The notes under the pieces are model-generated. The model was not told where the DNA came from. It saw nothing but the letters and a program-made list of their open reading frames with translations, and did not search any database. A stretch of 64,000 nucleotides of DNA from a virus. The position numbers and the translations under genes were made by a program. Location: positions 1 through 64,000 of the IMG/VR virus record IMGVR_UViG_3300042561_001206; one strand, 5' to 3'. This document shows, in pieces, positions 2,499 through 62,488 of this stretch (position 1 is its first letter; each line of letters starts with the position of its first letter).

Positions 2499-2981
2499 AT
2501 GTATGCAAAAATTTTAAACAATGCGGTTGTAAAATACCCCTTCACTTTAGTTGAATTAGAACAAGAAAATCCATATACGAAATATAATATGGATGTGGAT
2601 TTGATTGATATCTATCCGAAAACAGAAACAGGAACAAGAGAAAATTCTTTTTTGGTTGAAGTGCATTCTTCAACACCTCCGTCTTTTAATCCTGCATTGG
2701 AAAAAATAGTCGAATCGAATCCAGTCCTAAGCAATGGGCAATGGGTACAAAATTGGGTCATTGAACAGTTAACAGAGGAAGAAAGGCTTCAAGCAGAAGA
2801 AGAAAAATCTTCCGAAATTAGAAAACAAAGAAACGAACTTCTATCTGATACTGATTGGACACAATTGAATGATGTTTCTTCAACCGTATCTCAACAATAT
2901 GCGAATTATAGACAAGCATTAAGAGATATGCCACAACAATCAGGATTTCCTTGGAACATTACATGGCCAAATGTGACATGA
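2499..2981 (+). CDS. Tail fibre assembly chaperone-like protein (Phage_tail_APC type)
   Basis: 160 residues. The C-terminal third carries the pattern of the phage tail assembly chaperone family: an acidic helix, then RKQRNELLSDTDWTQL, then YRQALRDMPQQSGFPWNITWP. In this family the DW-TQL and YRQALRD...FPW..WP signatures are typical, and members sit directly after tail fibre genes, where they help fold or oligomerise the fibre or determine its attachment. Here it closes the fibre operon. The N-terminal ~90 residues are a variable domain that may bind the fibre. Family call is from motif recognition. Confidence 0.8.
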   Translation: MYAKILNNAVVKYPFTLVELEQENPYTKYNMDVDLIDIYPKTETGTRENSFLVEVHSSTPPSFNPALEKIVESNPVLSNGQWVQNWVIEQLTEEERLQAEEEKSSEIRKQRNELLSDTDWTQLNDVSSTVSQQYANYRQALRDMPQQSGFPWNITWPNVT

Positions 2982-3008: not shown

Positions 3009-3650
3009 ATGAAACGTATATTAATTGCTACACCATGTCTTTATGGTAAAGTTGACGCATATTATGTACACAGTTTATGCGAATCAATTAAACTAGGGCT
3101 TAAACACTCCTTAGCCATCAATGCAATTTTTCTCGCAGAAGAAAGTATACTCACAATTGCAAGAAATGAACTTATCAATTTAGCATATCGAGATGAATAT
3201 GATGCTATGGTCTTTATTGATGATGATGAACTTTGGGCTCCAGAAGCATTGATTGAAATTATTCTTTCAGAAAAGGATGTGGTTGGAGTTCCTGTTGTAA
3301 ATAAAGGCGATGCTAAAGTAGAATATAATGTTTCTTATGATAAAAATAAAGTGTATAAAGATAAAGATGATGAGTATATCAAAGTCAGAAGTGTTGGTAC
3401 AGGTTTCCTAAAATTATCCAGAAAAGTCATCGTTGATCTGTGTGAATCAAATTCGGAAATTATTTTCAGAAACAAAAAATTAAAAAATGTATTTGAATTT
3501 AATTATATAAACGGTGCATTTATAGGTGAAGATATAATGCTATGTCGAAAACTACATGAATTGGGGTATGGTATATGGATTAATCCAAAACATACCGTTT
3601 CACATATGGGTGTAAAAATGTATAAAGGTGACTTTCAAAAAAATATTTAA
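3009..3650 (+). CDS. Glycosyltransferase-like protein (GT-A fold, DxD-type)
   Basis: 213 residues, with AAGGTGA upstream of the ATG. The N-terminus RILIATPCLYG and the acidic cluster FIDDDE near residue 72 match a family of phage GT-A-like proteins; a second copy of the same family lies at 30933-31751 (FVATPMYGG, FIDSDI). The DDD cluster would bind a metal and nucleotide sugar. It begins a run of three sugar-transfer genes followed by a sulfotransferase, so it probably helps modify a glycan on the virion, DNA or host surface. The acceptor is unknown. Confidence 0.65.
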   Translation: MKRILIATPCLYGKVDAYYVHSLCESIKLGLKHSLAINAIFLAEESILTIARNELINLAYRDEYDAMVFIDDDELWAPEALIEIILSEKDVVGVPVVNKGDAKVEYNVSYDKNKVYKDKDDEYIKVRSVGTGFLKLSRKVIVDLCESNSEIIFRNKKLKNVFEFNYINGAFIGEDIMLCRKLHELGYGIWINPKHTVSHMGVKMYKGDFQKNI

Positions 3651-3652: not shown

Positions 3653-4414
3653 ATGAAAAATAAAATTGATGTTGTTATACCAACAATGTGGGCATATGAG
3701 CCTTTTCCTAAAATTTTAGAAAAATATTCAAAGTTTGAATCTATCAATAATATTTTTTTAATTGACAATTCACTACATTCAAAAAATAAAAAAACAATCA
3801 AACATATTGACAAAGTTGTTGAGATTTGCTATGGTAGAAACATTTATGTGAATTCAGCATGGAATGAAGGCTATCATAGATCAAAGGCTGATATACTGTG
3901 TCTGCTTAATGATGATATTTCAGTTGATGAAAGTATATTTGATAAAATGTCAGAGTTAGATTTCTCTGAAATAGATGTTATTGGAGTACATCTAAAAGGT
4001 AGTATTGATAATTATCATATTGTCGAACATGAAACTATTGAGGATGAATTGATAAAACTTAATGTTGATAAAACAAAAGCAATCGGTGGGCAAAGTTATG
4101 CTTTTGGTGTCTGCATGTTCATCAAACGTTCCTCTTATAGAGTTATACCAAGTTTATATAAAATTTGGTATGGAGATGACTACTTAATTCAAAAATGTAA
4201 AAACATTTATGCTTTGAAAACCAGCAAAATAAAAGGAGAAATTTCAAAAACTATCACTGCATTCGATAAAGACAGTGACATACAAAAACGAATAGAACTG
4301 GATTCAAAAAATGCATACAAGTTTTTTTACCCTGCAAAAAATTGGGATTTAGTACAGAGCTATGCATTGAAAGAACAAAAAACTATACCATTTTTAGAAA
4401 GAAGGAAATATTGA
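3653..4414 (+). CDS. GT2-like glycosyltransferase
   Basis: 253 residues, starting 2 nt after the preceding stop. The N-terminus IDVVIPTMWAYEP, then NEGYHRSKADILCLLNDDI at about residues 65-83, is the GT2 pattern: a nucleotide-binding beta strand followed by N.G...A.....LNDD as the metal-binding DxD equivalent. No membrane segments are seen, so a soluble enzyme. It lies in the glycan/sulfation cassette behind the tail fibre genes. Donor and acceptor cannot be told. Confidence 0.65.
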   Translation: MKNKIDVVIPTMWAYEPFPKILEKYSKFESINNIFLIDNSLHSKNKKTIKHIDKVVEICYGRNIYVNSAWNEGYHRSKADILCLLNDDISVDESIFDKMSELDFSEIDVIGVHLKGSIDNYHIVEHETIEDELIKLNVDKTKAIGGQSYAFGVCMFIKRSSYRVIPSLYKIWYGDDYLIQKCKNIYALKTSKIKGEISKTITAFDKDSDIQKRIELDSKNAYKFFYPAKNWDLVQSYALKEQKTIPFLERRKY

Positions 4415-4416: not shown

Positions 4417-5313
4417 ATGAAATATAGTATTTTTCATTTGCAAGGTGGAATTGGAAAGCATATCGCAGCAACGGCCGTTGCGAAAACAATTAAAAATAAT
4501 CATCCTGATAGGAAATTAATTGTTGTCTGCGCCTACCCAGAAATTTTTATTAATCTAAATTTTGTTGATAGAGTTTTTACATTAGGAAATACAAGTTATT
4601 TTTATCAAGAATATATTCAGGATAAAGACTCAATCATCTTTCATCATGAGCCATACTACACCACTAATCACATTCATAAAAGAAAAAAACTTATACCAAA
4701 CTGGTGTGAAATGTATGGTTTGAATTACAATAATGAATGGCCAGAACTGAAGTTCAATAAATTGCAATATGATTTATCTAAAAGGCATTGGCTAAGAAAA
4801 AAACCCATCATGTTAATTCATACCAATGGCGGTATGATGACAATTGATGCAAAATCATATGCATGGACAAGAGATATGCCAGAAAGCATAGCTCAAGAAC
4901 TGGTCGATCACTATAAAAAAGATTATCATATCTATCAAATTACTAAATTGAATTCACCAAAATTAAACGGTGCTGAACATATTTTTGCCACTCAACAACA
5001 ATCATTGACACTGATGGAACTGTTTAGTTTAATACTACACAGTAAAAAAAGAATCTTTATTGATTCTTGTATGCAACATGCAGCAGCCGCAATGAAAAGG
5101 AAATCAACAGTTCTTTGGAATGGCACCAGCCCTAAAGTTTTTGGATATGATGTACATGACAATATAAGCACAGAAATTCCATACGACTTCAAATTACCAG
5201 GAAGTTATCTTTTTGATTTCGACTTTAATGGTAATGAATTAGAATATCCGTTTACTGATGATGTTAAATTATTCGATATAAATAAAATCATCGAGTCTGT
5301 TGATAAACAATAG
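4417..5313 (+). CDS. GT9-like (heptosyltransferase fold) glycosyltransferase
   Basis: 298 residues from the ATG at 4417, chosen because GAAGGA lies about 10 nt upstream; a longer frame from 4342 would overlap the preceding gene. N-terminal FHLQGGIGKHIAATAVAKTI and C-terminal FIDSCMQHAAAAMKRKSTVLWNG match the GT-B architecture of GT9 enzymes, whose C-terminal half carries D...QH.A.A.....V.W.G. Heptosyltransferases of this family build LPS cores; the phage copy is divergent and its acceptor is unknown. Confidence 0.65.
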   Translation: MKYSIFHLQGGIGKHIAATAVAKTIKNNHPDRKLIVVCAYPEIFINLNFVDRVFTLGNTSYFYQEYIQDKDSIIFHHEPYYTTNHIHKRKKLIPNWCEMYGLNYNNEWPELKFNKLQYDLSKRHWLRKKPIMLIHTNGGMMTIDAKSYAWTRDMPESIAQELVDHYKKDYHIYQITKLNSPKLNGAEHIFATQQQSLTLMELFSLILHSKKRIFIDSCMQHAAAAMKRKSTVLWNGTSPKVFGYDVHDNISTEIPYDFKLPGSYLFDFDFNGNELEYPFTDDVKLFDINKIIESVDKQ

Positions 5314-5323: not shown

Positions 5324-6244
5324 ATGAGCGCAATTGAAAGAAAATATTATTTTATGTCTGGATTACCAAGATCGGGAAGCACTTTGCTTTCGTCATTGTT
5401 AAATCAGAATCCTAGATTTCATTCTGGGCCTAGTTCTCCTGTGGTTCCAACAATTTTAGCTTTGGAAAATTCTTTGTCTCAAGATGAATTATACCTTGCA
5501 TATCCTAAACCAGAACAGGCAAGAAGACTTATCGCAAGTGTTTTACAAATCTATTATTCAGATGTAGAAAGACCTGTAATTTTTGATAAAAACAGGTCAT
5601 GGGTTGACAGAATGAATTATATTGAAGGGTATTTTGGTATTCAACCAAAAATTTTATACCCAGTTAGAAACATCGACGAAATTTTAGCCTCATTTATTTC
5701 TATGTATCGCCGTAATCCATACACAGGAGAAGGTAAAATATCTTTTATGGATGAAATGTTGATTAAAAGTAATCAACCACTAAATGATGATTCTCGTTGT
5801 CAAATGCTTGCCGGTCCAATGGGTATTCTTGGGCAAAGTTACAATGGCTTAAAAACAGTTTTTGAGCAGGGAAAACAAAACTCAATTCATCTTATTGAGT
5901 ATGATGAATTGATTAATCAACCAAAAGAAACTATGGAAAAAATATATGACTTCTTAGAAGAAAAATATTTTGAACATGATTATCAGAACATAGAAAATCT
6001 GCACAGAGAAAGAGACAAAGAAGTATATGGGCTTGCTGATATGCATGAAGTTAGAAAATCTCTAGGTAAGTCCTCATTAGATCCTAAAGAATTATTATCA
6101 GAAAATATTTTAAACTTATGTAAAGGTGTTGAATTCTGGAGGGACGTGAAAGAATTTGATCCCGCAGAACACGAAGAAGATGAAAACGAAATTAATTTCT
6201 TAAACAGTAACTTTGACAACAACGAAAAAATAATAGGAGCATAA
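5324..6244 (+). CDS. Sulfotransferase (PAPS-dependent)
   Basis: 306 residues from the ATG at 5324, preceded by AGAGGTA. GLPRSGSTLLSSLLNQNP near the N-terminus (residues 13-30) is the 5'-phosphosulfate-binding loop of sulfotransferases. YPVRNIDEILASFISMYR (about 112-129) is the 3'-phosphate-binding motif, with the expected Arg and Ser. It would move sulfate from PAPS to a hydroxyl, probably on a sugar given the three neighbouring glycosyltransferases. The APS kinase-like fusion gene at 6548 could supply PAPS. Target is inference. Confidence 0.8.
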   Translation: MSAIERKYYFMSGLPRSGSTLLSSLLNQNPRFHSGPSSPVVPTILALENSLSQDELYLAYPKPEQARRLIASVLQIYYSDVERPVIFDKNRSWVDRMNYIEGYFGIQPKILYPVRNIDEILASFISMYRRNPYTGEGKISFMDEMLIKSNQPLNDDSRCQMLAGPMGILGQSYNGLKTVFEQGKQNSIHLIEYDELINQPKETMEKIYDFLEEKYFEHDYQNIENLHRERDKEVYGLADMHEVRKSLGKSSLDPKELLSENILNLCKGVEFWRDVKEFDPAEHEEDENEINFLNSNFDNNEKIIGA

Positions 6245-6245
6245 C

Positions 6246-6545
6246 ATGACTTTAGAGGAAGAAGTGGAACAAAGAGAAGCACACATCAAATCCATAGAAG
6301 GAATTAGAGAAACTATACTACGAGCAAAAGATTCAGTGTGGGTTATCAATAATGAAATTGATAAAAAAAATAATTCAGCAGATGGAAAATTAACTAAAGA
6401 AGGAAAGGGCAACGTTGAAAGAAATGTTGGGCATCTAGAAATTATTTTGGCCACCCAATATATTGCTGAGTCGGGAGAGGACCTTTCTGAATTACAAGCA
6501 GCGGTCGTAACAGGAAAGGCATTACTTGCAGAAGAAACGGAATAA
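6246..6545 (+). CDS. Hypothetical small protein in sulfation operon
   Basis: 99 residues, starting 1 nt after the sulfotransferase stop and ending 2 nt before the APS-kinase-like gene, so part of one operon. It is charged and mostly helical by composition (Glu/Lys-rich, few aromatics), with no cysteines, signal peptide or membrane segment. I recognise no family. Confidence 0.6.
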   Translation: MTLEEEVEQREAHIKSIEGIRETILRAKDSVWVINNEIDKKNNSADGKLTKEGKGNVERNVGHLEIILATQYIAESGEDLSELQAAVVTGKALLAEETE

Positions 6546-6547
6546 TT

Positions 6548-7402
6548 ATGAAAAAGATTTTGATTATGGGTCTTCCTGGTTCAGGTAAGACATACTTTGC
6601 AGAAAGATTGAAAAAATACTTGGAAGAAAATAGTAATTTACATAATGCTCCAGACGGTGCACTATCGAATTATGAAACCGTTCCAATGCACTGGAAGGCA
6701 AAAGTAGATTGGTTCAATGCAGACGAGGTAAGAAAACGTTATAATGATTGGGATTTTAGCCATGAAGGTAGAATTAGGCAAAGCCTGAGAATGGCAGAGT
6801 TTGCTTTAAAGTGTAAAGGTGACTATGTAATCTGTGACTTTGTTGCACCTTTAGTTGAGATGAGAAACAACTTTAAAGCCGATTGGACAATCTGGATGGA
6901 CACCATAGATGCAGGGCGGTTTGAGGATACTAATAAGGTATTCGTATCTCCTGAAGTATATGATTTCCGAATAAACGAAATGAATGCTGAAAAATGGGTT
7001 TCTTTTGTTGGTGAACATATACTAGAAAATAAAAGGCGTCCAAACTTTGACTGGAAAAAAGAAACAGTACAGATGCTAGGTAGATGGCAACCATGGCATG
7101 CTGGGCACCGTGCGCTTTTTGAACGTGCCATACAGAAAACTGGGCAAGTTGTCATTCAAATTCGTGATTGCCAAGGGTGGCAAGGTACTAATCCATTTGC
7201 TATCGAGCAGGTTAAAAACTACATTCGAAAAGATTTAGACTTGCAATACCAAGGAATGTATACGATTCAAGTTGTTCCAAATATCGTAAATATTACTTAT
7301 GGAAGAGATGTTGGTTATAAAATTGAGCAAGAAGTGTTTGAACAATCTATACATGATATCAGTGCAACAAAAATTAGAAAAGGAATGGGTTTCGATAAAT
7401 AA
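6548..7402 (+). CDS. Bifunctional APS kinase-like / HxGH nucleotidyltransferase fusion
   Basis: 284 residues with two domains. Residues 1-~165 look like adenylylsulfate kinase: P-loop GLPGSGKT (8-15), then WFNADEVRKRYNDWDFS and RIRQSLRMAEFA, matching the CysC D..N.R....L.FS..DR motif series. Residues ~175-284 form a cytidylyltransferase-like domain with GRWQPWHAGH (HAGH at 184-187) and a C-terminal ISATKIRKGM, as in NMNAT/cytidylyltransferase enzymes. A PAPS-making role fits the adjacent sulfotransferase. Whether the second domain makes APS, like ATP sulfurylase, or another nucleotide adduct is open, since it looks more NMNAT-like. Confidence 0.7.
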   Translation: MKKILIMGLPGSGKTYFAERLKKYLEENSNLHNAPDGALSNYETVPMHWKAKVDWFNADEVRKRYNDWDFSHEGRIRQSLRMAEFALKCKGDYVICDFVAPLVEMRNNFKADWTIWMDTIDAGRFEDTNKVFVSPEVYDFRINEMNAEKWVSFVGEHILENKRRPNFDWKKETVQMLGRWQPWHAGHRALFERAIQKTGQVVIQIRDCQGWQGTNPFAIEQVKNYIRKDLDLQYQGMYTIQVVPNIVNITYGRDVGYKIEQEVFEQSIHDISATKIRKGMGFDK

Positions 7403-7429: not shown

Positions 7430-8206
7430 ATGCCAGCAGTAACTAATAGAAACACATTTAAAGACTATTGTTTACGCAGACTGGGATTTCCTACCATTGA
7501 GATAAACGTTGATGATGATCAGGTAGAAGATCGTATCGATGACGCTTTACAATATTGGCAAGATTACCACTTTGATGCTTTACAGAAGGTTTATTATATT
7601 CGTGCATTAAATGCTACGGATATGACAAACAAATATATAAATTTAAGCCCTTCTGTAACGCTAGACACAAGTGGTAACTCAGTTAATATTATTGGCGTTA
7701 CTCGTGTATTTCCAATCTCAGACTCAATCAACCAAAACAATATGTTCGACCTCAGATACCAATTACGTCTGAACGAACTGTATGATTTTACGTCTGCATC
7801 CTATATCAATTATACTTTGACAATGCAGCACCTCCGTTCATTGGAACTTCTATTTACGGGTGAAGTTCCAATACGATTCCAACGTCATATGCACCGTTTG
7901 TACTGTGACTGGGGATGGGGATCCGCTGTTCAACAAGGTACAGTTGTTATCGCAGAATGTTTTGCTCTCATTAAACCTGAAGATTACATCTCTGTATGGA
8001 ATGACCGTTGGCTAAAAGAATATGCCACCTCATTAATCAAAAGGAACTGGGGTAGTAACCTTAAAAAGTTTGCAGGAGTTCAATTGCCCGGAGGAGTAAT
8101 GCTCAATGGGCAGGTAATTTATGATGAAGCCGTCGAAGAAATAAAGGGCTTAGAACAAGAAATGCAAAGCAAATATGAACTTCCAGTGGACTTTTATCTA
8201 AACTAA
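7430..8206 (+). CDS. gp13: Neck protein gp13
   Basis: 258 residues. It opens the T4-order block 13-14-15-16-17-18-19-20, and its sequence fits gp13: an N-terminal helical segment with DDQVEDRIDDALQYWQDYHFDA and an aromatic-rich core ending GVMLNGQVIYDEAVEEI. gp13 and gp14 assemble on the filled head above the portal and form the site where the tail docks. Its stop overlaps the gp14 start. Length is close to T4 gp13. Confidence 0.85.
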   Translation: MPAVTNRNTFKDYCLRRLGFPTIEINVDDDQVEDRIDDALQYWQDYHFDALQKVYYIRALNATDMTNKYINLSPSVTLDTSGNSVNIIGVTRVFPISDSINQNNMFDLRYQLRLNELYDFTSASYINYTLTMQHLRSLELLFTGEVPIRFQRHMHRLYCDWGWGSAVQQGTVVIAECFALIKPEDYISVWNDRWLKEYATSLIKRNWGSNLKKFAGVQLPGGVMLNGQVIYDEAVEEIKGLEQEMQSKYELPVDFYLN

Positions 8207-42886: not shown

Positions 42887-42961
42887 GGTAATGTAGCATA
42901 ACGGTAGTGCGCCTCCTTCATACGGAGAAAAGTGTTGGTTCAACTCCAACCATTACCACCA
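42887..42961 (+). tRNA. tRNA (CAT), Met elongator or Ile2
   Basis: Acceptor GGTAATG/CATTACC, loop TTCATAC (CAT), T-loop TTCAACT, encoded CCA. One of three CAT tRNAs; fully paired acceptor argues against initiator. Confidence 0.9.
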
Positions 42962-42973
42962 AAGGAGATTATT

Positions 42974-43861
42974 ATGTTGTTGGATGAAATTATTTCTGTT
43001 CCATATACTACTCATCCTAAGATGACGAAAAATAAAGGCAACATTTTCAACAAAACTCCAAATTTAGATTATATTCGTTCTAAAGAAAAAGAGTTAAAAC
43101 AATTTGCTCCTGATTTGTGTGCCGAGACATTTGAAAATATCTCAAAGCAACTTGTTCGAAAAAGTTCAATCTACTGTGGTGTACCACAAACAGATTCAAT
43201 GATTGAATTTGCAATGAATTTTGAAGAAGATGTTGCAATTATGCATAACGGAAAATTATCAGGAATTTGTTTCTGTTTTCCAAGCAGTTGGATTCCTAAA
43301 AAACGCATAGGTATGTCTCTAGAAGATATTCATTCACAAGTTGCGGATAATGAAAGACTTATAAAAATGAGCGCAAAAATTGCAAGCACAATGGCTGATC
43401 CTGTTTTAGGTTCTTTTCGAAGATATGTATGGACGATTACAAATAATCCTGAATTGAGTAATCATCCAAAAAGAAAAAGTATGATTGTTCCTAAAAGTTT
43501 AGATGATTTGTATTTTAGACTTGAAACTCAAACAACTGCACCTATAGGTGACTGTGTGACAAGTTTGTTCTTTGTTAAAGTTCAAGTAATTCCTCTTAGT
43601 CATGTCTGGGGAAGTTACGGTAAACTAATTACTAACAGTGTAAATTCTATGAGTGATGCAATCTTGGAATACAAAAATCTAAAGCATATTAAAACGGTCC
43701 TTAGTTCAATGGATCAGAACACCGGGCTACGAACCCGTGAGGTTGGGAGTTCGAATCTCTCAGGACCGGCCAACCATAATTTGAAAGATGAGTATTATGA
43801 TATTCTTACAACTGAAGATTGTTTAGTTAAAGATTCTCCCAGTGGTGTAAAGGCAACATAA
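42974..43861 (+). CDS. DUF3445-like (heme-dependent N-demethylase type) protein with tRNA-Arg inside its frame
   Basis: 295 residues from the ATG at 42974 (AAGGAG 7 nt upstream), between tRNA-Met and tRNA-Trp. FPSSWIPKKRIGMSLEDIHSQV, FRRYVWTITNNPEL and YFRLETQTTAPIG resemble the W...K.G..L..IH..V, R.NW.I and R.E.QT motifs of DUF3445. The family-like part ends near residue 240. There tRNA-Arg(ACG), exactly 78 nt, is traversed in frame without a stop; ~21 more plausible residues (NLKDEYYDILTTEDCLVK) follow, and the stop lies within tRNA-Trp. Family call moderate. Confidence 0.6.
   Translation: MLLDEIISVPYTTHPKMTKNKGNIFNKTPNLDYIRSKEKELKQFAPDLCAETFENISKQLVRKSSIYCGVPQTDSMIEFAMNFEEDVAIMHNGKLSGICFCFPSSWIPKKRIGMSLEDIHSQVADNERLIKMSAKIASTMADPVLGSFRRYVWTITNNPELSNHPKRKSMIVPKSLDDLYFRLETQTTAPIGDCVTSLFFVKVQVIPLSHVWGSYGKLITNSVNSMSDAILEYKNLKHIKTVLSSMDQNTGLRTREVGSSNLSGPANHNLKDEYYDILTTEDCLVKDSPSGVKAT
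43695..43772 (+). tRNA. tRNA-Arg (ACG), embedded in a CDS
   Basis: Acceptor CGGTCCT/AGGACCG, anticodon stem CGGG/CCCG with loop CTACGAA, T-loop TTCGAAT, encoded CCA. Same strand and inside the open frame of the DUF3445-like gene. Confidence 0.94.
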
Positions 43862-45021: not shown

Positions 45022-45095
45022 CGCGGGTTAGAGAAACGGTATCTCAGAAGCCTCATAAGCTTCAGTTGTTGGTTCGACTCCAGCACCCGCTACCA
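45022..45095 (+). tRNA. tRNA (CAT) with C1-T72 mismatch, initiator-like
   Basis: Acceptor CGCGGGT/ACCCGCT has an unpaired first position, the mark of formylated initiator tRNA, but the anticodon stem GAAGC/GCTTC lacks the three G-C pairs of initiators. Loop CTCATAA, encoded CCA. Last tRNA; overlaps the convergent gene by 6 bp. Confidence 0.85.
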
Positions 45096-45608
45096 CTTTC
45101 CTGCTTCTCTACCAAAATCAAAAAACCATACACAAAATCGTATTGCAACTGTTAATGTAATAATAAGAATTATTCCCCAAAAAGTATTTTCAATAAATCT
45201 CTTTCTTCGAATTGCTTGATCACGAATCATTCTTTCTCTTTTTTCACGTATGTCTCTTCTTAAATGAAGAAACTGACTGTAACCTTCTGCACCAAGATGT
45301 TGAAGTTCCCCATAGTAAAACATATGATATATCTCTGCTTCCATTTCACGGAGTTTTTGTTGTGCAATGATAATATCAAATGCTTCGGCTGTTTCGCTTT
45401 GCCCAAATCCTATCTTTTCAAATAAACCTAATTTTCTCTCACCCGAATCATTTTTACTATTGTTTATAAGTTGTTGTAATTGCCCAGCAGCATCAGCCCA
45501 TTTTGAAAGCTGTCGATAAACACCTTCAATTTCTTGCCCAACTTTAACCGCAGCCTTTAAGCCATTAAAGGCGGCTGTCACTGTTCCCATTAGAGTTATT
45601 GGATCCAT
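45090..45608 (-). CDS. Membrane-anchored helical protein, unknown
   Basis: 172 residues. Long helices (TAAFNGLKAAVKVGQEIEGVY; the conserved-looking GYSQFLHLRRDIREKRERM) and a single C-terminal membrane segment NTFWGIILIITLTVAIRFCVWF with basic residues before it. Last gene of the minus-strand cassette; the stop overlaps the convergent tRNA. Similar membrane proteins occur in marine T4-like phages; function unknown. Confidence 0.6.
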   Translation of the reverse strand: MDPITLMGTVTAAFNGLKAAVKVGQEIEGVYRQLSKWADAAGQLQQLINNSKNDSGERKLGLFEKIGFGQSETAEAFDIIIAQQKLREMEAEIYHMFYYGELQHLGAEGYSQFLHLRRDIREKRERMIRDQAIRRKRFIENTFWGIILIITLTVAIRFCVWFFDFGREAGKW

Positions 45609-46612
45609 CAGTTTACCTTTACAAGGTTATTCCTAAAAATACGCCATGCATTCTCCCAACTCCATTCTTTACTCTTTTCAAGTACAACATCTCGGTTTAA
45701 ATTTAAACAATCATCCACTGCGATTGAAAGATTGTCGTTCATATATCCAGTTAGTCCTTGTGATACTATGTCTTTAGGTCCTCTACATGGATATGCCGCT
45801 ATAGGTGTTCCGCATGCCATAGCCTCAATCATGACGATACCAAATGTTTCCCATTTGCTCGGAAAAACAAATACATCAGCATTAGCATAATAATATGCTA
45901 AGTCTAAACCCGTTTTAAAGCCAACGAATTCAACGTCTGGATAATTCTTTTCATATACATCTCGCATAGGTCCATCACCCACCATAATCTTGTGAGAATT
46001 CGGATAATCGATATTAAAGAAATCTTCTAGATTTTTTTCTTTACTAACTCTACTCACACATACAAGCAATTTTTTATCATCAGACTTGTTGCGCTGACTA
46101 GGATTAAATATTGCCCTATCAACTCCTCTTGTCCATGAAATTAGCTCACCATCAAACCCATTTTCGCGTAGATGCTTTACCATCGTATCTGTAGTAGTTA
46201 ATACTTTTCCCGAATGCTTGTGAAACCAACGTATTAAAGGCCAAGTAAGGGCTTCAGGAATTCCAAAAAGTTTTCTAAGTCCTTCCGGAAAATTAGTGTG
46301 ATAAGCAGTATTGTACCGATAACCGCGTTTGTCAAGATATTGTCGAGCACACAAACCAAGAGGACCCTCGGTGGCGATATGGATATGATCCGGAGATATC
46401 TCCTCAATCTTCTCGCCGATTTTCCTGGGATAGGCAATCTTGACTTCGTTGTAGCCAGGGCAATCAATGTAGTTGAACCACCCGGGATTAAGATATACAA
46501 AACGATAACCGTCCAAAAGCGCACAAGCCTCGATATTTTTGTAGGTTGTGACCACTCCATTTATTTGATCCTGCAAGTTGTCTGTAATAATTAGTACAAT
46601 TTTTTCAGACAT
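45608..46612 (-). CDS. agt-like: GT4 glycosyltransferase, Agt/SqdX-like
   Basis: 334 residues. TDNLQDQINGVVTTYKNIE at the N-terminus, AYHTNFPEG, then GVDRAIFNP, VSRVSKEKNLEDFF, MVGDGPM and VFPSKWETFGIVMIEAMACGTP: the GT4 pattern of enzymes that glycosylate diacylglycerol (SqdX, Agt). It overlaps the upstream PlcP-like gene by 8 bp. In bacteria plcP-agt pairs replace phospholipids with glycolipids under phosphate starvation, so the same reaction is likely here. Substrate is inferred from the pair. Confidence 0.7.
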   Translation of the reverse strand: MSEKIVLIITDNLQDQINGVVTTYKNIEACALLDGYRFVYLNPGWFNYIDCPGYNEVKIAYPRKIGEKIEEISPDHIHIATEGPLGLCARQYLDKRGYRYNTAYHTNFPEGLRKLFGIPEALTWPLIRWFHKHSGKVLTTTDTMVKHLRENGFDGELISWTRGVDRAIFNPSQRNKSDDKKLLVCVSRVSKEKNLEDFFNIDYPNSHKIMVGDGPMRDVYEKNYPDVEFVGFKTGLDLAYYYANADVFVFPSKWETFGIVMIEAMACGTPIAAYPCRGPKDIVSQGLTGYMNDNLSIAVDDCLNLNRDVVLEKSKEWSWENAWRIFRNNLVKVN

Positions 46613-47369
46613 TCTCCACTTCCTCTTCTATTTCTTTCAACCATGTTACTATTTCCCATCTGCCGTCATAGTGTTCAACTAATGCTGTACAACTTTCTAC
46701 CCAATCACCGTCATTCATATAAACTACGCCGTTAATGGTTTTTATCTCAGCCAAATGAATGTGCCCACATATGACGCCATCAAATTTTCTTTTCTTACAA
46801 TATTCTGAAAGCGTATTTTCAAACTTAAAAATAAAGTCTACTGCTCTTTTCACCTTCACTTTAAGAAATTTTGATAAACTCCAGTAGCCGAATCCTAACC
46901 TTCTTCTAAACCAATTAAACTTAGTGTTGAAAGATAATATTGCATCATATGCTGAATCACCTAAGAACGATATCCATTTATGCAATCGTACAACGCCATC
47001 GAAAAAATCTCCGTGAGTAACAAGATATCTTTTACCGTCTATACCTAAGTGAGTACACTGATTTACGACTTCAATATTACCGAAGTTTGTATTATAGGGT
47101 ATCAACAATCTTAGAAACTCATCATGATTACCCGCTACGTAAGTTACTTTGGTGCCGCTTTTTGCGAATCCCAGAATTTTTCTTATGACTCTCGTATGTG
47201 ATTCTTTCCATTTTAATTTATTTTTCTTAACTTTCCATCCATCGATAATGTCACCAACAAGATATAATTCATCACATTGATTGTGAGTTAAAAAATTTAA
47301 TAAAAGATTTGCTTTGCAATCTTTTGTTCCAAGATGAACATCGCTGATGAATATTGATTTGTATTTCAT
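46605..47369 (-). CDS. plcP-like: PlcP/LpxH-like metallophosphoesterase (COG2908 type)
   Basis: 254 residues. FISDVHLGTKDCKANLLLNF, VGDIIDGW, AGNHDEFLR, VTHGDFFDGVVR, FGYWSLSKFLKVKVKRAV, VICGHIHLAEI and NDGDWVESCTALVEH match the proteobacterial COG2908 subgroup that includes PlcP, which removes the headgroup from phospholipids to leave diacylglycerol. LpxH (lipid A synthesis) is the alternative, but the coupling to a GT4 gene favours PlcP. Confidence 0.75.
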   Translation of the reverse strand: MKYKSIFISDVHLGTKDCKANLLLNFLTHNQCDELYLVGDIIDGWKVKKNKLKWKESHTRVIRKILGFAKSGTKVTYVAGNHDEFLRLLIPYNTNFGNIEVVNQCTHLGIDGKRYLVTHGDFFDGVVRLHKWISFLGDSAYDAILSFNTKFNWFRRRLGFGYWSLSKFLKVKVKRAVDFIFKFENTLSEYCKKRKFDGVICGHIHLAEIKTINGVVYMNDGDWVESCTALVEHYDGRWEIVTWLKEIEEEVENV

Positions 47370-48035
47370 TTAATTTGCCAGAGGATTATCCAATGCTTTC
47401 TTAATCTTATCATCCACTTCACGGCGAATAGTTCTAAGTTCAGCATTTGTTTCACGCTCAATACGATTGACACGCTCATTAACATTTTGTACGGTAGAGT
47501 CAACTTGCTTTTGCATCTCTCTTACTTGTGAATCAGCACTGCGGCGAATCTCTTTTATTTCTGCTTCAGTACCAAGTCTAATTTCTTTTATTTCACTGTC
47601 AATCTGTCTTCTAATTTGGTTTATATCTTTTTCAACTTCACGTTGAGCAACTTTCGATCCGCGTTCAACACCTTCCAGTACAGTCTCAGTTCTACGAATA
47701 TCACCTTTTAAATTTTGATTAATATCGCGGGTATATCCGACAACTTTTTCGCTGTTCTCTTCTAATTTAATAATACGTGCTTCATACTCACTGAAGTCGG
47801 GAGCAACATAATTTGCAATTTTCTTCTTCATGCCCTCATAATCTTTATACGCTTCGAATACACCGTACATACCACCAATCACAGATGAAACAATACCAAA
47901 AGCAATCATAAGTTTTGCAGGTGTAAAACTATAACCACCAATACTGATAACAGTATCTTTACTAGCATACTTCTTCATTGCATCTTGAAGTTCATCGACT
48001 TTTTTATCAACGTTTTTATCTTCTGTACTGCTCAT
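47370..48035 (-). CDS. Membrane-anchored coiled-coil protein
   Basis: 221 residues. One membrane segment near residues 39-62 (PAKLMIAFGIVSSVIGGMYG), then a long charged helix (residues ~80-215) with heptad character: RREVEKDINQIRRQIDSEIK-type repeats. Overlaps the upstream exported protein by 20 bp and abuts the PlcP-like gene. Likely a scaffold or spacer at the inner membrane; no family recognised. Confidence 0.6.
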   Translation of the reverse strand: MSSTEDKNVDKKVDELQDAMKKYASKDTVISIGGYSFTPAKLMIAFGIVSSVIGGMYGVFEAYKDYEGMKKKIANYVAPDFSEYEARIIKLEENSEKVVGYTRDINQNLKGDIRRTETVLEGVERGSKVAQREVEKDINQIRRQIDSEIKEIRLGTEAEIKEIRRSADSQVREMQKQVDSTVQNVNERVNRIERETNAELRTIRREVDDKIKKALDNPLAN

Positions 48036-49707
48036 CTACCATCTCCTTATGGATTCTATCTGATCTTTGATTAAGTTGCCTTAAAGCTCTTGCGTTATCA
48101 CTAATAGTTGCTCTCTTATAAATATCTTCTGCTTTGTAAAAAGGCAGGTCAGGCAATTTCGCCTGTTCATACGCACTAAAACCAGGAACAGTCGATAATG
48201 AAGCCATCACATCATCTTGTGGGTCCTTTTGAGCGTTTCTTTGGGAAGATTGTTGACTTCTCTGTTGATCACCCGCGCGTCGTTGTTGTTCTCTTATTTG
48301 TTGCCTTTGTTGTTGGGGTGACTGTGGCGAAACATTACGACTTGTTATACCAGTTCCTAGTTGCTGAGATTGTTGGTTAGAACTCAGGGCTTGATTAACA
48401 ATTGGATCACTTGTTACTTGTGATGTAGTTAATAACTTTGCAACATCTTCATTACCCACCGAAGGCACAGGAAGTGATGTTGTTGTAGTTACTGTGTTAA
48501 TTTGCTGTGCAGTGGTATAACCTGGGCACTGTGGATTGCTTTGTGGGTTAGCAGAACATGCATCAGCAATTTGTTTCTTTCTAAAAGCGTCGGCATATCC
48601 TGGGCAACCAGAATTGTATAGAGGATTTATTGTGCATTGTTGATTGAAGTATGCCTGTTGGTACAGTGGGCAAGATGTAGAAAAAAGGGGATTAGAAGTA
48701 CACTGTTGGTTTAAATATGCTGATTCATAAAGTGGACATGATGTACTCGAAAGCGGATTTTCATTGCAGGTCTTATCAAATAAGGCTTTAGCATATCCTG
48801 GACAAGATGAGTTATAAAGAGGATTTGCTGTGCATTGTTGGGTAAAATATGCTTGTTGATATTCAGGACATAAAGGAGAAAATAGTTGATTTAAACTACA
48901 TTGTTGTGCTTGATAAGCAGCAGCATAGCCTGGGCAATTCGATCCAAATAGGGGATTTGCTGAACATTGTTGATTGAACCATGCTTGTTGCCACCCCGGG
49001 CAAGACTGACTGTAAAGTGGACTAATTGCACATTGTTGCTGTAGAAATGCCTGTTGATAACCTTCGCATGTTGGTGATGCGAGAGGATTTGCACCGCAAG
49101 GATCAACAGAATATCTTAAACGAACATCTATATCTCTTATTTCAGGACCATAATAACCTTTCCATTGCCCATCATCTCGACTTGAAATATCTATGGAAAC
49201 ATTTCCTACAGATGCTAAACTATACTTATTTTTAAAATCTTCAATTCCCGTAAATCGTGTCCAGTCATTAATACGTCTACCATAATCGAAAGTTTTATTT
49301 TCTATGATGTTGATATTCGTATTATCGTAAAGAGATACACGAATAGTTAAAGGATCAAAAGATGGGTTTTGATTTGATCCTGCATTAGCATTTTTAATAG
49401 TCCAGCCGTATTGATACCCACGAACCTGAATACCAGTTCCAGATAGTGCTTGATTGACGGCTATGTTTTGGTGTAAAATTGAGCCGCCATAGCTAAAAAG
49501 TATAGCTCCGTCTGCTGACCTTTGAACTGGGCAAGGACCTCCTGTTGTACCACCCCAAATCATTCCGTTATGCTGAGTTAAACATCCTTGCCAACCTGTT
49601 TGGTTGATTATGTTTGAGGATGTTTGTATATCCTGAGCGTTACAGAAGAAGGAGAAGAACAGCCAAGACGCCAAGCCCAGCAGAAACTTTTTGCCAGAAA
49701 CTTGCAT
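48016..49707 (-). CDS. Exported protein with 22-residue Cys repeats
   Basis: 563 residues. Signal peptide KKFLLGLASWLFFSFFCNAQ at the N-terminus. Residues ~30-210 form a beta-rich domain (DPLTIRVSLYDN, DIDVRLRYSVDPC). Then nine repeats of about 22 residues of the form QQCxxNPLxxxxCPxYxxAYxx, each with two Cys that could form disulfides after export. The C-terminal ~150 residues are Gln/Ser/Arg-rich. Function unknown; coexpression with membrane genes suggests an envelope or cell-surface role. Confidence 0.6.
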   Translation of the reverse strand: MQVSGKKFLLGLASWLFFSFFCNAQDIQTSSNIINQTGWQGCLTQHNGMIWGGTTGGPCPVQRSADGAILFSYGGSILHQNIAVNQALSGTGIQVRGYQYGWTIKNANAGSNQNPSFDPLTIRVSLYDNTNINIIENKTFDYGRRINDWTRFTGIEDFKNKYSLASVGNVSIDISSRDDGQWKGYYGPEIRDIDVRLRYSVDPCGANPLASPTCEGYQQAFLQQQCAISPLYSQSCPGWQQAWFNQQCSANPLFGSNCPGYAAAYQAQQCSLNQLFSPLCPEYQQAYFTQQCTANPLYNSSCPGYAKALFDKTCNENPLSSTSCPLYESAYLNQQCTSNPLFSTSCPLYQQAYFNQQCTINPLYNSGCPGYADAFRKKQIADACSANPQSNPQCPGYTTAQQINTVTTTTSLPVPSVGNEDVAKLLTTSQVTSDPIVNQALSSNQQSQQLGTGITSRNVSPQSPQQQRQQIREQQRRAGDQQRSQQSSQRNAQKDPQDDVMASLSTVPGFSAYEQAKLPDLPFYKAEDIYKRATISDNARALRQLNQRSDRIHKEMVDEQYRR

Positions 49708-50188
49708 TCGAATTCTCGCTTATAGGTTTAGGTTTACGATCTGGAGATGATTCCCAAATTCTTTTAGCATCCTCACCTATTCTACCATCAACTGGGCATG
49801 GGGTTCCAGCATTCATCATGGCATCAAAAACTCTATCATCTTGGCATAAAGTAGCCACAGCAGCAACCTTCATACCCATATCGTATAAGTTTTTGGCAAG
49901 TTTTAATCGTTCGCAATTTAAATCACGAACCATTGTTCCACCAGAAATACCCAAAATTTGTGTTTGAACGGCACCACCCACTCCTACGGTACATAAATCA
50001 TTATTGAGTACATTAAAAGAAGGAGAGATAGCCGAAGCTGGAGGAGACCTAACAGTGGTATCATTCACACTATTAGAATTTGTAGTTACTGTGCTGGTAC
50101 TTTTCGAATCAGTAACTATCACATCAGATTGAGCAAACGTTAATGAAGACATGACAAAAAGTACCAAGAAGGTTAACTTTTTGTACAT
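49640..50188 (-). CDS. Exported protein with C-terminal membrane anchor
   Basis: 182 residues from the ATG at 50188 (AAAGGATG upstream); a longer frame exists but would lack the signal start. Signal peptide YKKLTFLVLFVMSSLTFAQ, Ser/Thr-rich linker, a Cys-containing domain (NNDLCTVGVGGAVQTQ; DLNCERLKLAKNLYDMGMK; TLCQDDRVFDAM), and a final hydrophobic stretch VSAGLGVLAVLLLLL. Overlaps the next minus gene by 68 bp. First gene of the cassette. No family recognised. Confidence 0.6.
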   Translation of the reverse strand: MYKKLTFLVLFVMSSLTFAQSDVIVTDSKSTSTVTTNSNSVNDTTVRSPPASAISPSFNVLNNDLCTVGVGGAVQTQILGISGGTMVRDLNCERLKLAKNLYDMGMKVAAVATLCQDDRVFDAMMNAGTPCPVDGRIGEDAKRIWESSPDRKPKPISENSNASFWQKVSAGLGVLAVLLLLL

Positions 50189-50202
50189 TTTACATCCTTT
50201 TC

Positions 50203-50230
50203 TTGACTTTATAGACTTATATGATATAAT
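50203..50230 (+). promoter_or_regulatory. Sigma70-type promoter for the gp43 operon
   Basis: TTGACT, 16-nt spacer, TATAAT, 45 nt before the oxygenase ATG at 50275. It drives oxygenase, Sm-like gene, gp43, uvsX and gp41. Confidence 0.75.
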
Positions 50231-50231
50231 A

Positions 50232-50239
50232 TATTTATG
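50232..50239 (-). promoter_or_regulatory. Candidate late promoter for the minus-strand cassette
   Basis: Reads CATAAATA on the minus strand, the same box as before gp18, 44 nt before the first minus-strand start. The region is very AT-rich, so this is tentative. Confidence 0.4.
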
Positions 50240-50274
50240 AATATATAATGTTATAATTTCATTAAGGTGATAAA

Positions 50275-50835
50275 ATGACTCCATCAATTATGTTATTCGA
50301 TAATTTTTATGCAAATCCGACTGATGTTAGAAACTTTGCTCTCAGTATGGATTTTAATATTTCCGGTAATTTTCCTGGGTTTAGGACTAAACCTTTGGAT
50401 GGTGAAAACAATAAAAACGCTAAACTATTAATGGAAAATATAATAAAAAAGAAAATAGTTTGGTGGCCAGAAGAGTATAATACTGCCTTTCAGTATACAA
50501 CTGAAAATGATGAAACATGGATTCATTACGACCCTACTAATTGGGCAGCCGTTTTGTATCTAACTCCTGATGCACCACTTGATTCTGGAACAGCCATTTA
50601 CATGCATAATGAAACTAAAATTTATATGTTGGACAGAAATGATCCAAAAACAGATTTGAATCAATATGGTAGAGATTTAACACAATGGACACCTATTGCT
50701 AAGGTTTCAAATATTTTTAATAGATTGGTTGTATATCGTGGCAATTATTATCACAGAAGTGTCAAACCAGGGTTTGGGCAAAACCAACACAATGGTAGAC
50801 TTTTTCAAACTTTCTTTTTCAATACTGAGGATTAA
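50275..50835 (+). CDS. 2OG-Fe(II) oxygenase-like protein (DUF6445 type)
   Basis: 186 residues. TWIHYDPTNWAAVLYLTPDAPLDSGTAIYMH gives His84 and Asp86; RLVVYRGNYYHRS gives His160; NGRLFQTFFF gives the 2OG-binding Arg175. This layout is that of small oxygenases frequent in marine phages. First gene after the sigma70 promoter, before gp43. A different oxygenase from the one at 26165. Substrate unknown. Confidence 0.65.
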   Translation: MTPSIMLFDNFYANPTDVRNFALSMDFNISGNFPGFRTKPLDGENNKNAKLLMENIIKKKIVWWPEEYNTAFQYTTENDETWIHYDPTNWAAVLYLTPDAPLDSGTAIYMHNETKIYMLDRNDPKTDLNQYGRDLTQWTPIAKVSNIFNRLVVYRGNYYHRSVKPGFGQNQHNGRLFQTFFFNTED

Positions 50836-57260: not shown

Positions 57261-57998
57261 ATGAAACCTTTGATCACAATCATAACACCGACAACAGGTA
57301 ATTCACATTTAGCCGAAGCCGTTCGGTCGGTTGAAAAACAAACATATGAAAAAATACAGTATCTTGTTGTTGTAGACGGACAACAAAGATTAGAAAATAC
57401 TAACAAAGTATTAAACTCTCTCGGTTGCAATAGATACAATACTGTTGTTTTACCTGAAGCTACAGGATATGAACAATACAATGGTCACAGAATTTATGGT
57501 GCAATGACATACATCGCAGAAGGTGAATATCTTTGTTTTCTAGATGAAGATAATTGGTATGAACCTAATCATGTCGAGTCTCTTGTAGAAGCAGTTCAAG
57601 GAAAAACCTGGGCTTACTCACTCAGAAAAATTGTTGACCAAGAAAATAATTATATCTGTAATGATGATTGTGAATCTCTGGGTAAATGGAAGTCGGTGTT
57701 AAATGATAATTTCATCGATGTTGGTTGTTTTATGCTACCTAAAAAAATAGCAATTCAATTTTCGCCAGGTTGGTACAGACGAGCCAGACATCCACAAGAA
57801 CAACCTGAAGTGGACAGATTACTTTCTCATATACTGTTCACACAAATACCACACGAACAGGTTGACACCAATGGTCAATATACATTAAACTACAGAGTTG
57901 CCAGTAGAGGTGACTCTGTTCAAGGATCTTTTTTTGAAAAAGGTAATGAACACATGAAAAACATTATGAATGGAGAATACCCATGGAGAAAGATTTAA
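57261..57998 (+). CDS. GT2 glycosyltransferase
   Basis: 245 residues. LITIITPTTGNSHLAEAVRSVEKQTYEKIQYLVVVDGQQ and YLCFLDEDNWYEPNHVE (metal-binding DED) define a family 2 GT-A enzyme. Starts the second glycan cassette. Overlaps the next gene by 16 bp. Soluble; donor and acceptor unknown. Confidence 0.75.
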   Translation: MKPLITIITPTTGNSHLAEAVRSVEKQTYEKIQYLVVVDGQQRLENTNKVLNSLGCNRYNTVVLPEATGYEQYNGHRIYGAMTYIAEGEYLCFLDEDNWYEPNHVESLVEAVQGKTWAYSLRKIVDQENNYICNDDCESLGKWKSVLNDNFIDVGCFMLPKKIAIQFSPGWYRRARHPQEQPEVDRLLSHILFTQIPHEQVDTNGQYTLNYRVASRGDSVQGSFFEKGNEHMKNIMNGEYPWRKI

Positions 57999-58867
57999 TT
58001 ATAGGAGCATTCACAAATTATACAGACTATGATGTATTAAAGCCGTGGGTGCAATCAATTAAAGATACAGGTTTTGAAGGTGACATTGTACTGTCAGCAA
58101 TCGATGCTACCGATACGATTGTTCAAAAACTAGAGTCTGAGGGAGTAAAAGTTCTAAGGTCTAGTAACTCTCAAAAAATGATGGTACATATGTTGAGATT
58201 CCTTTCAATTTATGATTATTTAAAAAGCAATAAAAACAAATACCGTTTTGTGGTGACAACAGATGTAAGAGATGTTATTTTTCAAAGCAATCCGATTGAT
58301 TTCATTAAAACAAAATTTTATAATATTGGATTAATTGCTGCATCTGAAGCGATTAAAATAAAAGATGAAAAATGGAATCGTGAAAATATTATTAAAAATT
58401 TTGGACCTTATTTTTACAATGATGTTTCTGAGAGAGAAGTTTTAAATGTGGGGCTAATTGCAGGAAAAGCCGAACTCGTGAAAGACCTTTGTTTCACACT
58501 CTTTCAAATGTCTTCAAATCGCCCAGACTGGGTAGCCGATCAAGCCGCATATAATATGATACTTTCATTTGAACCTTGGAAATCTAAGTGTGCAATATTG
58601 AGATTAAGAGATGCATGGGCACTTAATGCTCATGTTACAAATAAGCCGGATCAAATGGAAGAATTTGGTCCATATTTATTGGAAAATCGCCCCTACATGG
58701 ACGAAAATGGTAAAGTTGTAAACTCAGAAGGAAAACCTTTTGTTATTGTACATCAATATGATAGAATTCCAGAATGGATGGAATATTTCTCTAAAAAATA
58801 TGGAATAAAAATTACAAAAGATACAAATACTGGCACATCACCTAAATACTTCCTATATAAATCGTAA
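57983..58867 (+). CDS. Putative glycosyltransferase (DxRD type)
   Basis: 294 residues. LIIGAFTNYTDYDVLKPWVQSIKDTGFEGDIVL, then RFVVTTDVRDVIFQSNP (TDVRD as metal site), then VLNVGLIAGKAELVKDL and DQAAYNMIL: the plan of GT8-like or nucleotide-diphosphosugar transferases. Coupled to the preceding GT2. Target unknown. Confidence 0.6.
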   Translation: MEKDLIIGAFTNYTDYDVLKPWVQSIKDTGFEGDIVLSAIDATDTIVQKLESEGVKVLRSSNSQKMMVHMLRFLSIYDYLKSNKNKYRFVVTTDVRDVIFQSNPIDFIKTKFYNIGLIAASEAIKIKDEKWNRENIIKNFGPYFYNDVSEREVLNVGLIAGKAELVKDLCFTLFQMSSNRPDWVADQAAYNMILSFEPWKSKCAILRLRDAWALNAHVTNKPDQMEEFGPYLLENRPYMDENGKVVNSEGKPFVIVHQYDRIPEWMEYFSKKYGIKITKDTNTGTSPKYFLYKS

Positions 58868-58870
58868 TTT

Positions 58871-58878
58871 TATAAATA
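58871..58878 (+). promoter_or_regulatory. Late promoter (exact TATAAATA)
   Basis: Exact late box 20 nt before the ATG at 58891, directly after the upstream stop codon. Suggests that the second glycan cassette is expressed late. Confidence 0.6.
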
Positions 58879-58890
58879 TGAGGTTTTGAA

Positions 58891-59721
58891 ATGAGCAAAA
58901 TCACTTTAGTTACCGCTTTCTATGATATCGGGCGCGGTGACTGGTCAACAAATGTCCACAAAAATGGTGGACCTCTCCCGCATTATCTTCAACGTTCTGT
59001 TGACAAATACATTGAACACTTCACAAGAATGTGTGAAATCGACACCGAAATAATCGTCTACACTTCACCGGATTTGGTTGAACGTCTTTCAAATATTTCT
59101 CCTAACGTAAAAGTTGTTTCATATGATTACGAGAATGTACAACAGGAACTAAGAGAAAAAATTCACAACATTCAAAGTTCTCCAGAATTTACAAGGAGAA
59201 TCAATCCTTATCAAGTTCGAAACCCTGAATATTGGTCAAAAGATTATGTTGGAGTTACTTCACTCAAAGCTTTTTATGTTTATGACGCTTTTGAAAAGGG
59301 GCTCATTACTAATGATTGGGCATCATGGATCGATTTTGGATATTGTAGAGATGATGAACATATTCCTAAATCAAAAAAATGGGAATACGATTTTACTCCA
59401 GGAAAAATGCATTTCTTTAATTACAGGGAACCTGTATTGTCAAGAGCGATGGAGCAAATTCAAACGGCCGTTCTGAATAACCTTGTTTATATTATTGGTG
59501 GAGTTTTTGTAGGAGAAAAAGAACAATGGTGCATGCTAAAAACACACATGGAAAAATCTTTAAATGTTCTTTTTGAAAACAACTTGGTCGATGATGATCA
59601 AGGGCTTTTGCTCATGTCCTACTTCAGAAATCCTGAAAAATATGAACTTCATAAAATGCCTCTAGATCAGGATATTGAGCAAGTTCGTTCGATTTTGAGG
59701 AGATTTAATAAACATGAATAA
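58891..59721 (+). CDS. HtrL/WlaTC-like glycosyltransferase
   Basis: 276 residues. ITLVTAFYDIGRGDWSTN, YLQRSVDKYIEHFTRMCEIDTEIIVYTSPD, WASWIDFGYCRDDEHIP and NLVYIIGGVFVGEKEQW match the HtrL_YibB family (TAFyDIGR....., WiDfG..r). Members act in LPS or capsule synthesis. Overlaps the next gene by 8 bp. Confidence 0.75.
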   Translation: MSKITLVTAFYDIGRGDWSTNVHKNGGPLPHYLQRSVDKYIEHFTRMCEIDTEIIVYTSPDLVERLSNISPNVKVVSYDYENVQQELREKIHNIQSSPEFTRRINPYQVRNPEYWSKDYVGVTSLKAFYVYDAFEKGLITNDWASWIDFGYCRDDEHIPKSKKWEYDFTPGKMHFFNYREPVLSRAMEQIQTAVLNNLVYIIGGVFVGEKEQWCMLKTHMEKSLNVLFENNLVDDDQGLLLMSYFRNPEKYELHKMPLDQDIEQVRSILRRFNKHE

Positions 59722-61096: not shown

Positions 61097-61115
61097 CCTA
61101 TAGAGAGAATGTAAT

Positions 61116-62485: not shown

Positions 62486-62488
62486 AAA

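Follow-up and report, generated by a model that had tools for sequence, protein, structure and literature searches.

The window, i.e. the whole 64,000-nucleotide stretch of DNA that was analysed, is part of a 91,595-base IMG/VR virus record and contains T4-like structural genes, namely those of the neck protein gp13, the terminase and the sheath, together with 27 tRNA genes. A sulfotransferase gene, a small 99-aa gene and a gene encoding a fusion of a kinase with an HxGH nucleotidyltransferase (NT) lie on one strand, with their ends touching or almost so (Table 1). The earlier note had called the sulfotransferase and the fusion, and both calls held as described; the 99-aa gene between them had been overlooked.

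Table 1. Features of the sulfotransferase and fusion locus in the phage window
Feature	Position	Strand	Evidence
Tail-fibre assembly chaperone-like gene	2499-2981	+	PF16778, 71.7 bits (cut-off 26.6)
Three genes read as glycosyltransferases	3009-3650, 3653-4414, 4417-5313	+	
PAPS-dependent sulfotransferase, 306 aa	5324-6244	+	PF13469, PF00685, phrog_27463, cyanophage homologues
Small conserved gene, 99 aa	6246-6545	+	Between sulfotransferase and fusion
Bifunctional kinase-nucleotidyltransferase, 284 aa, candidate compact PAPS synthase	6548-7402	+	
N-terminal APS-kinase-like domain, about residues 1-165	6548-7042	+	PDB profile matches, Foldseek, conserved columns
C-terminal HxGH NT domain, about residues 169-284, candidate minimal ATP sulfurylase	7052-7402	+	
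Neck protein gp13 / head-tail adaptor Ad2	7430-8206	+	phrog_211, E=8e-40

The sulfotransferase reading frame, which runs from an ATG at 5324 to a stop at 6244, matches PF13469 with 59.4 bits (cut-off 27), PF00685 with 45.4 bits (cut-off 22) and phrog_27463 (E=8e-76), and its homologues in the cyanophages S-SKS1 and S-SRM01 carry sulfotransferase annotation. The PAPS motifs are readable in the sequence, the 5'-PSB loop as GLPRSGST and the 3'-PB segment as YPVRNIDEILASF, and the claim that both PAPS-binding motifs are present held on the profile match and the motifs. The 99-aa gene gave no Pfam, no PHROG and no meaningful NCBIfam match; in 14 loci a homologue of it is found beside a sulfotransferase of the same type. 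The description of the three upstream genes as glycosyltransferases is weakly backed: the first and the third have GT2/GT9 matches, both below the Pfam cut-off, the middle one is without any Pfam match, and the PHROG search returned the glycosyltransferase families phrog_1574 and phrog_34859. By inference, these glycosyltransferase-like genes are the probable makers of a glycan that is sulfated.

Domains of the fusion protein

The fusion is not a chance reading frame, because relatives are encoded in more than 580 viral stretches and its motif columns are invariant in 60 homologues. Residues from about 1 to 165 match the APS kinase family PF01583 with 27.3 bits, above the cut-off of 21.1; the same residues also match KTI12 (27.0 bits, cut-off 22), and the score against the NCBIfam equivalog apsK (TIGR00455) is far under its cut-off (16.3 vs 138.7 bits). 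In a profile search of the PDB, APS kinases are the top matches of the first domain (best E 7.5e-12). The predicted structure of the fusion has a pLDDT of 90.4, and with it Foldseek places APS kinases at all of ranks 1-15, several of them solved with APS, the best viral structural match being the APS kinase of Ralstonia phage phiRSL1.

An alignment of 60 diverse homologues, 40-83% identical to the fusion protein of the window, keeps the kinase motifs GLPGSGKT (the P-loop, residues 8-15), NADEVR (57-62), DFSHEGR (69-75, kept as DFSxEGR), FVAP (98-101) and DTNKxF (127-132). The DGDN motif of APS kinases (PMC11697783) reads NADE, with N57 at the place of the first Asp and the second, D59, invariant across the 60 homologues, as are R62 and F70 of the putative APS site, where R75 is nearly invariant. 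The domain shares with CysC (PF01583; PDB 7yq1, 2ofw and 1m7g) the P-loop, the second DGDN Asp, the Arg/Phe/Arg of the putative APS site, the FxxP strand and the overall fold, but differs from it in the Asn at the first DGDN Asp, in a lid that is about 17 residues shorter (judged by eye from the sequence) and in falling below the apsK cut-off. Thus, the first domain meets the Pfam and fold tests for an APS kinase, while its conversion of APS to PAPS is inferred from sequence alone. Missing APS-binding residues had been named beforehand as a result that would refute the reading; these residues are mostly present, apart from the substituted DGDN Asp and the short lid.

The second domain, residues from about 169 to 284, falls just under the cut-off of CTP_transf_like (19.1 vs 21). 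It contains the motifs GRWQPWHAGH (178-187), NPF (215-217), YGRDVGY (251-257) and ISATKIR (271-277), for which the alignment consensus is GRWQPWHxGH, NPF, YGRxVGY and ISATxIR. The HxxH test is met, H184 and H187 being invariant in the 60 homologues; within YGRDVGY, G252, R253, V255, G256 and Y257 are invariant and the D is variable, and this motif may correspond to the GRD loop of Sat. No match to PF01747 (Sat) was found in the fusion, nor did the NT profile match the ATP sulfurylase chains in the PDB, and the second domain was accordingly rejected as a PF01747 sulfurylase. The QXRN loop described for ATP sulfurylases (PMC3779200) is absent ahead of HxxH, and the NMNAT-type GRxQPxHxGH is present instead. 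The NT has in common with Sat the HxGH motif, a GR-containing loop and membership of the adenylyltransferase superfamily, but lacks the PF01747 match, the QXRN loop, the N- and C-terminal domains and a conserved D in the GRD loop.

The relationship to NMN adenylyltransferases is closer and also partial. In the PDB profile search with the fusion the second domain retrieves these enzymes (E 8.8e-9), and the NT domain alone gives an NMNAT match at 5.9e-10 that ends near residue 80 of 120, while the cut-offs of the NCBIfam NMNAT models are missed widely (TIGR01527 26.1 vs 181.2; NF003785 28.4 vs 418). The structure predicted for the NT domain alone (pLDDT 90.5) has NadM-type NMNAT and PPAT as the nearest folds, over about 78 of 120 columns, and Allochromatium ATP sulfurylase at rank 35 with a TM-score similar to those of the NMNAT matches; no match in this search fell under E = 0.001. 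The best-match alignments do not cover the NMN-binding half of the NMNAT fold, stopping at about residue 80 of 120, and where an alignment does run full length, in a few cases (1ej2, 1f9a), the rmsd is 4.5-5.4. Because the NMNAT alignments stop there, the nucleotide half is regarded as NMNAT-like and the acceptor half as the domain's own. With NadM-type NMNAT (2qjt, 2qjo and 1ej2) the NT thus shares GRxQPxHxGH, ISxTxIR and the nucleotide-binding half, but not an alignable acceptor-binding half or scores above the family cut-offs. From the sequence and the predicted structure the second domain is inferred to be an HxGH adenylyltransferase; since it fails both the PF01747 and the NMNAT family tests it is assigned to neither family, and is said only to work like an ATP sulfurylase. 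The earlier description of the domain as NMNAT-like rather than like known ATP sulfurylases held on the NCBIfam, PDB profile and structure matches. A clear match to NAD enzymes, named in the same note as a possible refutation, is limited to the nucleotide-binding half, and the structural comparison that it proposed, with ATP sulfurylase and NMNAT, placed NMNAT and PPAT nearest, in part only.

The architecture of a bifunctional PAPS synthase is present, and the sulfate-activating activity of the second domain is inferred. As in animal PAPSS1/2, the APS kinase comes first and an HxGH sulfate-activating domain second, with HxGH histidines that are invariant in the fusion homologues; the HNGH histidines of human PAPS synthase are essential (PMC11697783). 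In contrast to PAPSS1/2, the fusion has 284 instead of about 620 residues, its kinase lid is short, and its second domain, of about 115 residues, is NMNAT-like and not of the PF01747 type.

Relatives in viruses

The collections were sampled by best match, so the frequencies given here are not population values. A sulfotransferase-family reading frame is present in 55 of the 83 loci holding the fusion, and all 86 sulfotransferase reading frames within 6 kb lie upstream of the fusion on the same strand. The linked sulfotransferases are found at variable distance, also without a gp13 neighbour, and their identity to that of the window goes down to 21%. As an independent control, loci were fetched by gp13 rather than by the fusion, and those with 2.5 kb of upstream sequence were counted: a sulfotransferase occurs in five of six loci with the fusion vs two of 52 without it (Fisher p=2.7e-5, a guide only because related loci are not independent). 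Chance co-location near gp13 is rejected by these loci. A reverse control starting from the sulfotransferase of the window was not possible, because only two contigs with close relatives of it were found.

In about 40% of the viral loci with enough upstream sequence no sulfotransferase was found by the single family model. This model undercounts, as inspection by eye showed divergent sulfotransferase-like reading frames, without a Pfam match, in L027, L030, L031 and L137, and a Sulfotransfer_2 gene in L130 was missed by it. Cultured relatives, 32-39% identical, are encoded by Stenotrophomonas phages DLP6, Suzuki and Bhz60, Clavibacter phage 33 and Xanthomonas phage AhaSv. Four of these (Sanovirus/Salvovirus phages, 32-37% identical) have a Sulfotransfer_4-like gene two places upstream; the match was run on Bhz60 only (PF17784 26.2 bits, cut-off 22.8), the others being close sequence homologues. 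No recognised sulfotransferase lies beside the fusion relative of phage DLP6. In Bhz60 a NADAR gene (L002:7559-8002; PF08719 92.6 bits) overlaps the start of the kinase-NT gene, and the sulfotransferase-like gene adjoins the NADAR gene.

Several loci show other gene arrangements. Proteins of about 590 aa encoded upstream of the fusion in L037 (3443-5215) and L057 (4999-6768) consist of a sulfotransferase domain and a TPR/glycosyltransferase-like C-terminal part. Two loci without a recognised sulfotransferase have a carbamoyltransferase gene (PF02543/PF16861) preceding the fusion (L028:6486-7955 and L032:6526-7998), and several radical-SAM-like reading frames were noted there by eye. A second kinase-like domain, forming the C-terminal part of another reading frame, is encoded directly upstream of the fusion in L015 and L017 (7900-8412 in both) and in L251 (about 6500-7050); its P-loop is degraded in the first two (GLPESSKN) and intact in L251 (GEKGSGKT), and it is possibly a paralogue or a pseudokinase.

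In a tree of 71 proteins viral and bacterial rows are mixed, with at least five changes forced, so several transfers have occurred; no direction is claimed from the tree, and three entries titled cellular (L084, L085 and L089) may be phage contigs.

Relatives in bacterial sulfur operons

A genome scan revealed relatives of the fusion protein in SAR11 bacteria, where the NT is encoded alone, next to a separate kinase gene, or fused to the kinase. In one locus (L088) aprB (PF12139 E=3e-34) and aprA follow the fusion at a distance of a few genes. In another (L196) the NT gene alone directly precedes genes for a membrane protein, which we take to be AprM-like from its position only, AprB and AprA, with a TauE/SafE permease gene downstream, and the gene order of a third (L197) is identical. 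The same place before aprMBA is that of sat (PF01747) in sat-aprMBA operons, sat being immediately upstream of aprMBA in Allochromatium (PMC3779200). SAR11 has been described as possessing AprBA while lacking sat and cysDNC (PMC5069961; PMC10356861). Since NT relatives occupy the vacant position of the sulfate-activating enzyme, the NT is a strong candidate for the missing SAR11 enzyme.

Co-occurrence was counted in 197 genomes of the SAR11 family, without correction for relatedness or genome incompleteness. The NT family is present in 122 genomes, aprA in 101 and both in 90 (p=1.8e-16); the canonical ATP sulfurylase PF01747 was found in only nine, in eight of them together with the NT family. 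Among 37 NT/aprA pairs that were compared, the two genes are no more than 6 kb apart in 20, far apart on one contig in ten and on different contigs in seven, which gives at least 20 genomes with the NT this close to aprA. A role of the NT in making or consuming APS and of the kinase in making PAPS would predict AprA in NT-only genomes and users of PAPS in kinase-bearing ones. In the SAR11 genomes, aprA is present in 24 of 25 NT-only genomes and Sulfotransfer_3 in four of these 25, vs 63 of 89 kinase-bearing genomes (p=1.2e-6, relatedness uncorrected). Genomes were classed as NT-only by the number and scores of their matches, and Sulfotransfer_3 is only one of several sulfotransferase families. 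In two SAR11 loci (L200:4398-9886 and L201:4625-11840) two or three secreted-looking proteins of great length (590-777 aa) are encoded between the NT and kinase genes, and in L200 EgtB/EgtD-like genes, named by eye, adjoin the kinase gene.

The second bacterial context, judged to be stronger evidence than the aprMBA context of SAR11, is an assimilatory sulfate-reduction operon in very small alphaproteobacterial genomes of a family other than SAR11, in which separate NT and kinase genes take the place of cysDNC (L220:5992-11165 and L221:6323-11461). The gene order in L220 is NT, kinase, DUF2061, CysH, CysI and CobA, and that of L221 is similar, the DUF2061 gene between kinase and CysH being noted for L220; the downstream genes of both encode uroporphyrinogen-III methyltransferase and a sirohydrochlorin chelatase-like protein. 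The HMM matches were run on L220, where CysH scores 251.9 bits (cut-off 154) and CysI 707.8 bits (cut-off 457). Like CysDN and CysC, the NT and kinase stand at the head of a cysH-cysI-cobA operon, but the fold of the pair is unrelated to that of CysN (a GTPase) and CysD (PP-loop). In the six genomes of this family CysI is present in all and the NT in five; CysN was not found over the cut-off in any of the six, and PF01747 is absent from five, the exception being G226, which has it on a different contig. Sulfate assimilation by this pathway requires APS, and PAPS as well with a PAPS-type CysH. The NT and kinase pair is inferred to be the only visible source of APS in four of the five NT-bearing genomes. 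What is expected of a functional ATP sulfurylase, to be encoded with APS-using enzymes where other ATP sulfurylases are lacking, is thus seen in the aprMBA operons, with PF01747 in nine of 197 genomes, and in the cysHI operons, with PF01747 in one of six and no CysN.

Proposed reactions and rival explanations

It is likely that the 284-aa protein is a compact single-chain PAPS synthase in a phage sulfation cassette. Sequence, fold, neighbourhood and co-occurrence are established; the two catalytic activities, the direction in which they run and the acceptor are inferred, and no activity was measured. The NT domain would convert ATP and sulfate to APS and PPi, as an ATP sulfurylase does but with an NMNAT-like instead of a Sat-type domain; the P-loop kinase domain would phosphorylate the 3'-OH of APS, yielding PAPS and ADP from APS and ATP; and the sulfotransferase encoded two genes upstream would use PAPS to sulfate an acceptor. 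The acceptor would most likely be a glycan built by the products of the adjoining glycosyltransferase-like genes, and a virion or cell glycan is favoured, as a guess, because these genes and the tail-fibre region adjoin. In bacteria the NT and kinase would replace sat beside aprMBA (SAR11) and cysDNC before cysH-cysI, and in the aprMBA operons of SAR11 the NT may run in reverse, converting APS and PPi to ATP and sulfate as the last step of sulfite oxidation.

PAPS synthesis and sulfation, as the earlier note had proposed, are supported by structure, by the viral neighbourhood and, decisively, by the two bacterial sulfur operons. Of its two alternatives, a single-chain route from sulfate to PAPS and a novel nucleotide donor, the former is the better. 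Its glycan target, on the fibre or on host LPS, remains a guess from the neighbours, the sulfated acceptor not being identified. A compact ATP sulfurylase derived from NMNAT is the best explanation of the second domain, by inference from sequence alone. A bolder reading, also inferred and in our view probable, is that APS in SAR11 and in some further alphaproteobacteria comes from a new class of ATP sulfurylase, about 115 aa long and descended from the NMNAT branch of the HxGH enzymes, which together with an APS kinase forms the smallest known PAPS synthase, carried by many T4-like and other phages for their own sulfotransferases. No earlier description of phage PAPS synthases or of NMNAT-like ATP sulfurylases was found in the open-access literature searched (subscription papers were outside its scope).

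The rival that survives best, although unlikely, holds that the kinase is a genuine APS kinase but that the NT performs other APS chemistry (e.g. APS and phosphate to ADP and sulfate) or only binds or channels host-supplied APS. In its favour, the NT has no sulfate-binding loop of the PF01747 type; it is linked to AprA, the maker of APS, and an APS:phosphate transfer would equally serve sulfite oxidation; and marine and freshwater hosts may provide APS themselves. Against it, cysH-cysI operons need APS from sulfate, with no other ATP sulfurylase found in four of the five NT-bearing genomes, and NT-only genes hold the position of sat before aprMBA. Moreover, cleavage of an NTP between its alpha and beta phosphates, with release of PPi, is the general reaction of HxGH enzymes.

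NadR-like NAD salvage by a riboside kinase and an NMN adenylyltransferase, with the phage refilling NAD as NMNAT-carrying phages do, is very unlikely. It is favoured by the NadM/NMNAT enzymes being the nearest sequences and folds of the NT and by the NADAR gene directly upstream in Bhz60. However, the similarity is limited to the nucleotide-binding half, with NMNAT cut-offs far off (TIGR01527, 26 vs 181 bits), the kinase resembles APS kinase and not the NadR kinase, and the sulfotransferase, aprMBA and cysHI contexts would be left unexplained; it was rejected on the aprMBA and cysHI operons and on the sulfotransferase-like gene that the NADAR gene of Bhz60 itself adjoins. Even less likely is an HldE-type sugar or alcohol activation (kinase, then NT) feeding the glycosyltransferases, with the sulfotransferase coincidental, which is suggested by glycan genes nearby in the window and in the SAR11 locus L202, but the aprMBA and cysHI operons hold the same genes without glycan genes, and the sulfotransferase association holds in the independent gp13 control.

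If the preferred reading, a single-chain PAPS synthase with an NMNAT-like ATP sulfurylase, is true, it would represent a third structural solution for sulfate activation beside Sat and CysDN, and would give a function to hundreds of genes that are annotated as kinase, cytidylyltransferase or hypothetical. SAR11, the most abundant bacteria of the ocean, expresses APS reductase but has been described without an enzyme converting APS to sulfate and ATP (PMC5069961, PMC10356861); the NT is a candidate encoded beside aprBA, and brings a long-standing question on marine sulfite oxidation and sulfur energy metabolism within reach of a direct test. For the phages, a self-sufficient sulfation pathway is suggested, which implies sulfated glycans on virions or infected cells.

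Elsewhere in the window, an opposite-strand block (45090-50287, minus strand) encodes a group 1/4 glycosyltransferase (45608-46612), a calcineurin-like (LpxH-like) phosphoesterase (46605-47369), a membrane protein with a coiled coil and a protein of 563 aa that contains repeated Cys-rich units and matches no Pfam family. The tRNA array includes a HODM_asu-like gene (haem-dependent oxidative N-demethylase; 42932-43861; PF11927 72.5 bits), and a second large glycan-like gene block (57261-63205) contains a HAD phosphatase fused to a sugar nucleotidyltransferase (59714-61096; PF13419 and PF00483).
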